NCBI GenBank assembly: GCA_015061465.1
Contig: SUWN01000002.1
Span: forward strand, 1 to 64,000
Origin: Treponema bryantii
Lineage (GTDB): Bacteria; Spirochaetota; Spirochaetia; Treponematales; Treponemataceae
Direction of reading: 5' to 3'
DNA: 64,000 nucleotides
This document shows positions 24,242 through 33,896 of the stretch, piece after piece. The position numbers and the translations under genes are program-made. The notes under the pieces were generated by a model. The model did no database searches and was not told where the DNA came from. It saw only the letters and a list, made by a program, of their open reading frames with translations. Each line of letters starts with the position of its first letter. Position 1 is the stretch's first letter.

Positions 24242-25184
24242 TAGCCTGAGCTTCTGAACATTCTTCTATGTTCATTAATTTTGCTCAGGCTTCCAGTTTT
24301 ACTTTGCGTAAAACTGGTACATCCTTTTTGTGCACAACCAAGCTTCTGAACATTCTTCTATGTTCATTAATTTTGCTCAGGCTTCCAGTTTTACTTTGCG
24401 TAAAACTGGTACATCCTTTTTGTGCACAACCAAGCTTCTGAACATTCTTCTATGTTCATTAGTTTTGCTCAGGCTTCCAGTTTTAGCTTGCGTAAAACTG
24501 GTACGTCCTTTTTGTGCACAACCAAGCTTCTGAACATTCTTCTATGTTCATTAATTTTGCTCAGGCTTCCAGTTTTACTTTGCGTAAAACTGGTACATCT
24601 TTTTTGTGCACAACCAAGCTTCTGAACATTCTTCTATGTTCATTAATTTTGCTCAGGCTTCCAGTTTTACTTTGCGTAAAACTGGTACATCCTTTTTGTG
24701 CACAACCAAGCTTCTGAACATTCTTCTATGTTCATTAGTTTTGCTCAGGCTTCCAGTTTTACGTTGCGTAAAACTGGTACATCCTTTTTGTGCACAACCT
24801 AGCTTCTGAACATTCTTCTTTGTTCATTAGTTTTGCTCAGGCTTCCAGTTTTACTTTGCGTAAAACTGGTACGTCCTTTTTTTGCACAACCAAGCTTCTG
24901 AACCTTTTACTATGTTCATTAATTTTGCTCAGGCTTCCAGTTTTACGTTGCGTAAAACTGGTACGTCTTTTTTGTGCACAACCTAGCTTCTGAACATTCT
25001 TCTATGTTCATTAATTTTGCTCAGGCTTCCAGTTTTACGTTGCGTAAAACTGGTACGTCTTTTTTGTGCACAACCAAGCTTCTGAACATTCTTCTATGTT
25101 CGTTGATTTTGCTCAGGCTTCCAGTTTTACGTTGCGTAAAACTGGTACGTCACTTTTGTGCACAACCTAGCTTCTGAACATTCT
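24242..25184. repeat. Tandem array: ten 92-bp structured repeats
   Basis: CTTCTGAAC recurs at 24251 and every 92 bp up to 25171, giving ten full units plus a 14-bp remnant that runs into the stop codon of the GH43 gene at 25183-25185. Units differ by only a few bases. Each contains TGAACAT/ATGTTCA (7-bp stem), CCAGTTTTAC/GTAAAACTGG (10-bp stem, 5-nt loop) and a GTGCAC site. Before unit 1, AGCCTGAG completes a 9-bp outer stem with GCTCAGGCT; later units have CCAAG or CCTAG there instead. The track shows a 67-residue ORF in most units, but 92 is not a multiple of 3 and they are read-through shadows. Confidence 0.95.
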
Positions 25185-26745
25185 ACTTTTCTTTGTGTAC
25201 TACATTTAGATTTGTAAAAGTTGCAACCGCGGAAGAATTGGAATCTACTGCATAAAAACCTAAATAAACTCCTGTAAATCCACCTGCAACTTCGCTTGAA
25301 AGATAACGTGTGTCTGCTTGAGAAAGCAAAATCATATCTTTTTCTGTTTGTAGAAATAATTGATAACAGTAAGCATTTGCTAAAATTTTAAAAGTTGCTT
25401 TATTCGAAGCAAGTTTTAGTTTTTCTTTTAGGGAGTCTGCCTGCCCTACACAAATTCTAGAATTTGCATAAAAATCATTACCTTCTTTTGTGATAAAAAT
25501 ATCGTAATGATGATTTTCGTCCATAAATAAAGAAAGGCCTGATTCTGCTGTAGAACCTTTTGACACTGTTTCAGATTTGGACAATTCCACCTGACAAGAA
25601 ATTTCTTCCTCAAAAGCACATTGTCTAATTCCTACCCAAGATGGAGAATCTTCAAGATTTTTTATAGTTTTATTTGTTGCTTTAACTTTTAAGAAATCTA
25701 TGCCAAATTCGTAATTTTCTTTATGAGGATTTCTTAAATAATTCCAATCATTTTTTGTTGTTAGATTTTGGAAATTTTTGTGATAATTAAAATTTTGTTG
25801 TTCAAATTTGTGTTCAAAAGGCAATTCAACTTCTAGCAAAGCTTCTCCATAGCCTTGTTTATCAAATAAACTGCAACATGGAGTTCCAATATAAAACCAA
25901 TCATCTTTCCAAATAACTGGTTCCATACAAGTTTCACGTCCTAAATGATGGAAAGGCATGTATTTATCAATTTGTCTAAACGCAAGATGACAAAACCACC
26001 AAGTTCCATCAGTTGCCTGAACAATATCGCCATGCCCCGCACCTTGAAGTTGATATCCGCCAAGATTTCTATTTGTTAAAACAGGATTTGCAGGACAAGG
26101 TTCAAATGGACCTTTTAGATTTTTTGAACGAGCGTAGTTTACCATGTGCCCGTACTCTGTTCCACCTTCGGCATTTAACAAATAATAATATCCGTTGAAT
26201 TTATACATGTGTGGCGCTTCGATGTATCTTCCGCCAGTTCCGTACCAAAGAGGTTCATTTTCTGAAAGTTTTTTTCCAGTTTCAATATCGATTTGGCTGA
26301 TTTGAATATATCCACGACCAGTTTTATCGTTCCCATTAGAAATAAAATAAACTTTTCCATCATCATCAAAAAATAACGATGGATCAATCCCGTCTTGTTC
26401 TACTTTAATTGGGTCTGACCATTCGCCATAAATATCATCTGTCCAAACATAAAAATTTCCGATATTAGAAACGTTTGTTACAACCATGTAAAATCGCCCA
26501 TTATTAAAGCGAATTGTTGGTGCGTAAATTCCTCCACCAGTTATGCTTGAATTTTCTAAAAGCAACTGACTTTTTCTTGTAAGACAATGACCAATTTGTT
26601 TCCAATTGATTAAATCATCGCTTTCAAAAAGTGGAACTCCAGGAAAATAACTAAAAGTTGAACAAACCATATAATATTTTCCATTTGCCGCACACATACT
26701 TGGATCTGGATACATTCCTCTTAAAACTGGATTGTGAAATTTCAT
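25183..26745 (-). CDS. GH43 family glycosidase (beta-xylosidase/arabinofuranosidase type), cytoplasmic
   Basis: A 520-residue GH43 enzyme. The five-bladed propeller begins NPVLRGMYPDPSMCAANGKYYM (catalytic base Asp in YPDPS) and has DGIDPSLFFDDDGKVYF and the acid Glu in GGRYIEAPHMYKFNGYYYL. About 200 C-terminal residues form the beta-sandwich usual for xylosidases of this type (SWVGIRQCAFEEEISCQVEL). No signal peptide is visible, so it likely cuts imported xylo- or arabino-oligosaccharides. GAAGGTG precedes the ATG. It lies 21 bp downstream of the second GH43 gene, and its stop codon touches the 92-bp array. Confidence 0.92.
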   Translation of the reverse strand: MKFHNPVLRGMYPDPSMCAANGKYYMVCSTFSYFPGVPLFESDDLINWKQIGHCLTRKSQLLLENSSITGGGIYAPTIRFNNGRFYMVVTNVSNIGNFYVWTDDIYGEWSDPIKVEQDGIDPSLFFDDDGKVYFISNGNDKTGRGYIQISQIDIETGKKLSENEPLWYGTGGRYIEAPHMYKFNGYYYLLNAEGGTEYGHMVNYARSKNLKGPFEPCPANPVLTNRNLGGYQLQGAGHGDIVQATDGTWWFCHLAFRQIDKYMPFHHLGRETCMEPVIWKDDWFYIGTPCCSLFDKQGYGEALLEVELPFEHKFEQQNFNYHKNFQNLTTKNDWNYLRNPHKENYEFGIDFLKVKATNKTIKNLEDSPSWVGIRQCAFEEEISCQVELSKSETVSKGSTAESGLSLFMDENHHYDIFITKEGNDFYANSRICVGQADSLKEKLKLASNKATFKILANAYCYQLFLQTEKDMILLSQADTRYLSSEVAGGFTGVYLGFYAVDSNSSAVATFTNLNVVHKEK

Positions 26746-33247: not shown

Positions 33248-33327
33248 TTTTACGATCTCCATCAAAAAATAATTAAAATATATAACGTTAAAGATAATAA
33301 ATATTTGGTTAATTTTCAACAAAAACG

Positions 33328-33586
33328 TAGGATTAAATTAAACATATAAAGAAAAACATCGAGCGAAAAAGGCTCACGTGAATAACCGTACTTATGCTCC
33401 GCCGAGAGATAGCACGGACTTTTGAACATCGTATAACGTTAGAATGTCTTGTCCGTGCTTCCAGTTTTGTAGTTTCTACAAAACTGGTGGCGCAGCAAGA
33501 TAATTTCGCAATAAAAATGTGCAGCTGCGCCAACGAACATTCACTACGCCTTTTTCAGACAATTTTTTTATATGTTTACTTTATCG
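33328..33586. repeat. Structured intergenic element A with terminal inverted repeats
   Basis: The left end GTAGGATTAAATTAAACATA is mirrored by TATGTTTACTTTATC at 33572-33586, and the inner GAAAAAGGC...GTGAAT (near 33365) recurs inverted near 33540-33558. Inside lie three perfect stems in a row: AGCACGGAC/GTCCGTGCT (33412-33420 with 33452-33460), CCAGTTTTGTAG/CTACAAAACTGG with a TTT loop (33462-33488), and GGCGCAGC/GCTGCGCC (33490-33497 with 33525-33532). The middle and the GAACAT and TGTGCA segments match the 92-bp array unit. Two ORFs of about 70 codons in the track overlap it on opposite strands and look spurious. Confidence 0.8.
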
Positions 33587-33659
33587 AATTTGCCCAAAAA
33601 TTTTAAAATAAACTTTACATATACAAACGTTCGTATTTTAGATATTTCCGCCCATTTTG

Positions 33660-33896
33660 ATAAATTAAACAATTATAAATAATTTAAAAAAAAATAGATT
33701 TTGCGCGAAGGAACGTAGATAGGGGAAAAAACACTCTGCTTGTGGCAGCCACACTAGTGGCTGGTTTTATAGTTTCTATACCACAAGCAGCGTGTAGCGA
33801 GTTATCGAGCGGTTTTGAACCAAGCTACGTGACTGGGAGCAATTATAAATTGTTTTTATTAATTCTTTGATTTTATATGTTTATTTTATTCCTACC
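33660..33896. repeat. Structured intergenic element B, related to element A
   Basis: The left end GATAAATTAAACAATTATAAA (33660-33680) is mirrored by TTTATATGTTTATTTTATTC (33873-33892). Inside, CTGCTTGTGG pairs with CCACAAGCAG (33737-33746 with 33782-33791) around two smaller hairpins, AGCCAC-ACTA-GTGGCT and TATAG-TTT-CTATA. The TAGTTTCTA loop is shared with element A, as is ATCGAGCG followed by ACGTGA. It ends 4 bp from the xerC stop. The 73 bp between A and B are AT-rich and hold nothing that I recognise. Confidence 0.7.

Follow-up and report, generated by a model that had tools for sequence, protein, structure and literature searches.

A tandem array and a dispersed element in the genome of Treponema bryantii carry similar hairpins, which raises the question of what unit they share and what keeps its stems paired. 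Both lie in the window, the whole stretch of 64,000 nucleotides that we analyzed. The array is built of 92-bp copies, and the dispersed element is termed element A. An initial annotation noted that a stem in the two consists of different bases and is still fully paired. It took this as evidence of selection for structure, and suggested that the array is a local amplification of the element A core. Our analysis confirmed the observation, which extends far wider than stated, and partly supported its interpretation. The features of the two loci are as follows.

33411-33459, plus strand: stem S of the element A core, AGCACGGAC (33411-33419) paired with GTCCGTGCT (33451-33459) across a 31-nt loop
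33461-33487, plus strand: hairpin H of the element A core, CCAGTTTTGTAG-TTT-CTACAAAACTGG
33488-33532, minus strand: second stem S2 of the element A core, TGGCGCAGC/GCTGCGCCA, with arms at 33488-33496 and 33524-33532
24243-24317, plus strand: array unit 1, with S formed by AGCCTGAGC (24243-24251) and GCTCAGGCT (24283-24291), followed by H, CCAGTTTTAC/GTAAAACTGG (24293-24317)
24335-25184, plus strand: array units 2-10 and a partial unit, in which H and the 3' arm of S are retained and the outer 5' arm is gone

The element A core and array unit 1 have a common fold, composed of a 9-bp S stem, a 31-nt loop, one base and H, a 10-12-bp hairpin of the form CCAGTTTT...AAAACTGG. S and H are located as annotated, and the S bases differ between the two loci and are fully paired in both. 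The z-scores of the folds are -7.1 for the element A core and -7.8 for array unit 1, and in each case none of 200 shuffles was equally stable. S2 is an S-type unit on the other strand that has H in common with S; it lies in a minus-strand match (33449-33535) to R1, the family model described below. The real shared unit is S, H and the loop start TGAAC, which are general features of a larger family. The annotated alignment also included the TGTGCA and GAACATTC blocks, but these agreements are accidental. TGTGCA is present only in the window's copy of element A, its place being taken by TGAGCA in six other copies and by TGAACA in one. The closing GAACATTC is part of the element A frame and occurs as well in copies whose core is quite different.

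The array (24249-25184) contains 10.2 copies of 92 bp. A GH43 beta-xylosidase gene, with its 3' end toward the array, lies on one side and gatC on the other. The paired stem that had been annotated at the start of the array is that of unit 1, the only one of the ten with a complete S, and is not found in units 2-10. These carry CAACC[A/T]AGC in place of the outer 5' arm, and four of its nine positions pair. The arrays at the C55 and C37 loci likewise have a full S in their first unit only. We also observed apparent copies of the last codons of the neighboring gene (MTAMK, IDA.., VVHK..) in array tails, at these positions:

L210 and L228: end of ilvC
L230 and L231: end of an rpsA-like gene
window 25160-25200: end of the GH43 gene

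Copies of gene 3' ends are found inside array units as well, VVHKEK/VVHKKD of GH43 in the window and the ilvC and rpsA-like ends in other species; we presume the names ilvC and rpsA from the C-termini. They look like tandem duplications or target copies, and a search for a consistent rule among them found none. In addition, H is able to encode C-terminal residues and a stop, CCAGTTTTGTAA reading PVL followed by a stop codon.

The larger family is abundant. A hairpin search of the own genome (2.06 Mb in 87 contigs, 83% complete) identified 49 perfect sites, versus 2 for the reversed control pattern. The R1 model, built from 27 units of this genome, gave more than 100 matches in it (138 at E<=1, some of which are the two strands of one place). 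R1 matches are found in at least 67 of 196 genomes of the genus. In an order-wide sample of 197 genomes they are present in 16, which belong to three genera of the same bacterial family, and the order's other families gave none. The named genomes with exact matches are rumen Treponema MAGs. Units occur singly, as S-H-S2 composites, in tandem arrays and as convergent pairs. The S stem takes many forms in the own genome, including AGCGCAAGA, AGCGTGAGT, AGCGTAGGC, AGCACGGAC, AGCCTGAGC and GGCGCAAGT. The S loop is 29-33 nt long and contains TACCGAACG in many copies. H, which reads CCAGTTTTGY..., has the variants CCAGTTTTGC, CTAGTTTTGC and CAAGTTTTGC with matching 3' arms, and is followed by a tail, TACGTTGG/TTCATCG. 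High in copy number, palindromic, intergenic and near gene 3' ends, the units agree with the general description of REP-like repeats.

Covariation was examined in two wide alignments. A1 contains 27 units or loci of the own genome, chosen to have at least 7 of 9 pairs, and A2 contains 41 units from 29 loci in other Treponema genomes, fitted to the model. G-U pairs were allowed in selecting both. In A1, 98.4% of the 504 pair cells are paired, a percentage that the selection raises, and there are 62 double changes and a single one-sided change. Both sides change in eight of the nine S pairs and three of the ten H pairs. None of 500 shuffles did as well in covariation score or in pairing, and the paired share fell to 31-46% in slid controls. 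A2, in which the fitting likewise raises the percentage paired, has 139 double changes, and 16 of its 19 pairs covary. The near-absence of one-sided changes is not obviously inflated by the way the alignments were selected. Covariation is thus very strong in both, and the result that the initial annotation named as refuting it, a wider alignment lacking statistically supported covariation, was not obtained.

The pairs are almost purely Watson-Crick: among the paired cells, G-U accounts for 1 of the 496 in A1 and for 9 of the 722 in A2. Since there are almost no G-U pairs, it is probably at the level of DNA that the constraint or the mutational process works. Perfect stems can also be made and kept by template switching between inverted repeats, which is a source of compensatory changes (PMC8794818). 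The step from compensatory change to selection, as made in the initial annotation, has strong covariation behind it, but compensatory change alone does not prove selection for an RNA, because the pairs are so nearly pure Watson-Crick and template switching also yields perfect stems.

The units also have a characteristic position relative to genes, which were taken as the open frames called in the surroundings of each locus. At 19 of 44 S-side boundaries, a gene running inward has its stop codon within 6 nt, as against none of 25 H-side boundaries (36 clusters; Fisher p=4e-5). The first bases of S often fall within a TAA or TAG, and several stops lie 2 nt before S. Part of the excess may be stops supplied by the unit itself, because of this overlap. 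One S-H-S2 composite instead interrupts an open frame:

C58, 126-260 (L260): S-H-S2 composite within an open frame

The remainder of the frame has a weak match, below the Pfam cut-off, to the PD-(D/E)XK nuclease family transposases. In three species (own C82:774-790, L210 and L228), units are located at the 3' end of the putative ilvC in opposite orientations, which suggests that they arrived independently at the same gene end.

Our preferred reading, held with slightly more confidence than doubt, is that the array and the element A core belong to one dispersed REP-like family of Treponemataceae that is related to TD-2 and spreads, or is copied locally, as a non-autonomous element. Because of the mosaicism and copy number, we infer spread by an enzyme. 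The recognized entity would be a folded single DNA strand, identified by its stem shape, loop motif and H sequence. Its perfect Watson-Crick arms may be maintained by strand recognition and/or template switching during replication. The paired but changing arms, the near-fixed geometry, the conserved unpaired motif and the few G-U pairs together suggest such processes over RNA selection. Arrays could be the product of tandem duplications that run from within S as far as the tail, and a duplication starting inside S would leave only the first array copy with a complete S. Element A, which is transposon-like, has at least three interchangeable cores and may have gained one of them by taking up an S-H-S2 composite.

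A more specific proposal is tentative. The units may be mobile repeats that target stop codons, are recognized as folded strands by stem shape and loop motif and not by stem sequence, are moved by a non-RAYT enzyme and are exchanged as element cores. No Y1/RAYT gene was found in the own genome (83% complete), and the 20 Y1/RAYT loci examined across the genus have no R1 match nearby. Mobilization by RAYT/Y1 thus has no support. No consistent target duplication was seen. A search of GH43 orthologues for a pair of empty and filled sites yielded no clean one, as synteny is not conserved; genome G029 has a GH43 orthologue without the array, but the downstream synteny differs. Integron attC sites were considered and dropped, as there were no cassettes and no attC-like boxes by eye.

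The alternative that fares best, although we consider it doubtful, is that the units are 3'-UTR RNA elements under RNA-level selection, whose stem at the stop codon slows terminating ribosomes or blocks 3' exonucleases. An RNA role may be proposed because of the stop-codon position of S, which is in the sense orientation there. The RNA folds are very stable (z -7.1 and -7.8), and TD-2 is classed as RNA in Rfam. In E. coli, REPs located no more than 15 nt from a stop codon reduce translation (PMC12306157), an effect that lends this alternative some weight. However, there are almost no G-U pairs. The stop-codon position is not shared by the units within arrays, within element A or at C58, and array copies without S still retain H. 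Among 23 TD-2 loci examined, a co-directional stop within 6 nt of S is present at just two (L341 and L358).

Less probable still, and in our view unlikely, is that the perfect stems are a mutational by-product, with template switching homogenizing the arms of inverted repeats into a fold without function. Changes that are nearly always paired and Watson-Crick, without intermediates, are what this process would leave, and it is known to produce compensatory changes (PMC8794818). Yet stem length, S-H spacing and loop length are near-constant against a varying stem sequence, and the TACCGAACG motif of the loop is conserved. Mutation alone would hold neither the motif nor the geometry. In addition, array copies have lost the S stem although its 3' arm persists.

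That the array is a local amplification of the element A core, as annotated, is very improbable: the two have the same S-H fold and lie 9 kb apart, but in closeness to array unit 1 element A is only 12th of 26 relatives, no element A copy was returned at E<=1 when the array served as query in a DNA search, and the TGTGCA and GAACATTC blocks are accidental. The same search matched the C37 array (71-73%) and the C7 and C82 units. The closest relatives of array unit 1 in the family alignment are C7, C55, C37 and C14, and that of the element A core is the free-standing C58 composite. Because of this ranking and the lack of an element A match, the array is, as judged from sequence relationships, a fellow member of the dispersed family and not an amplified element A.

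The preferred reading of a dispersed, non-autonomous family also concerns element A as a whole, which has the following parts.

33328-33894, plus strand: whole element A, about 570 bp and dispersed, with terminal inverted repeats TAGGATTAAATTAAACATATAA/TTATATGTTTATTTTATTCCTA
33700-33844, plus strand: right module of element A, a separate structured module of about 140 nt

Element A consists of a left module with an exchangeable core and the structured right module. About 25 full or partial copies are present in the own genome. Across them, one and the same frame encloses at least three different cores, and copies exist both with and without the S-H core. Two core types in these copies are not S-H units, GAGCCC...GGGCTC and TTCGACC...GGTCGAA (window 33328-33894 and copies L009-L023). 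By eye, the inverted repeats of the copies end in TA. Empty sites for element A were not found, and no parent transposase of it was identified. The terminal repeat of element A recurs in inverted form at positions 1-30 of the window, with 93% complementarity to 33322-33351; a further copy of the element therefore probably begins just outside the left edge.

The right module is as strong a candidate as the S-H finding. It has 45 consensus pairs, 32 of which show compensatory double changes across the genus, and its G-U pairs are mostly confined to the outer helix. A search with element A as query recovered many copies, spread over 57 of the 196 genus genomes, the own genome included. Elsewhere the module stands alone between inverted repeats such as CAGGGCTTCCGCATTATAAA. 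It matched no Rfam family.

What began as one pair of similar hairpins is a genus-wide repeat family with strong covariation, tied to the unexplained TD-2 motif. The family is a test case for RNA-level selection versus DNA-level maintenance of perfect stems. Given its position at stop codons, an effect on translation or on mRNA 3' ends can be tested directly.

Several known systems resemble these repeats in part. MITEs, like element A, are dispersed and non-coding and have terminal inverted repeats; those of element A were judged by eye to end in TA, as in MITEs. Unlike MITEs, element A has structured, exchangeable core modules. Mycobacterial MIRU repeats, like the S-H units, are tens of bp long, overlap stop codons and form tandem arrays; to our knowledge, MIRUs are not built of covarying hairpins. 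REP/BIME repeats, which are GTAG-tagged and RAYT-associated, are short, palindromic and intergenic, and like the S-H units they are numerous and form inverted pairs as well as arrays. Some of them adjoin stop codons (PMC12306157, PMC3733652). In contrast to REP/BIME, S-H units have a large loop and a two-hairpin structure, no RAYT was found in the genome (83% complete) nor association with one at the 20 loci examined in the genus, and the GTAG foot is present in only 9 of 27 units.

The closest system is TD-2 (RF03162, clan CL00124). Searching Rfam at gathering and relaxed thresholds gave no family at cut-off, only weak matches to TD-2 and chance matches to miRNAs; the literature searched contained nothing on TD-1/TD-2. 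Sub-threshold TD-2 matches occur at many units, on the opposite strand. In the own genome, the best unit scores 34.9 bits and the window units at most 20.7, below the gathering score of 48.7. R1 and TD-2 matches overlap on opposite strands at G220:C1:852119-852216 and G149:C14:227692-227782, which links the families and not the window units directly. G149 belongs to the own genus. G220, in which 19 matches to TD-2 exceed the cut-off, comes from another genus of the family. The TD-2 stem is about 13-14 bp with a short CATCCNTG loop, versus 9 bp and a 29-33-nt loop, often with TACCGAACG, in the S-H family, and the TD-2 copies examined were rarely seen to abut stop codons, unlike S-H units. Like the S-H family, TD-2 is dispersed in Treponemataceae, with tens of copies in each genome. 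When it is read from the other strand, it has the same order of a variable paired stem followed directly by H (AGTTTTGC...GCAAAACT), and then a third stem. In our view, the S-H family is a diverged branch of the TD-2 superfamily.
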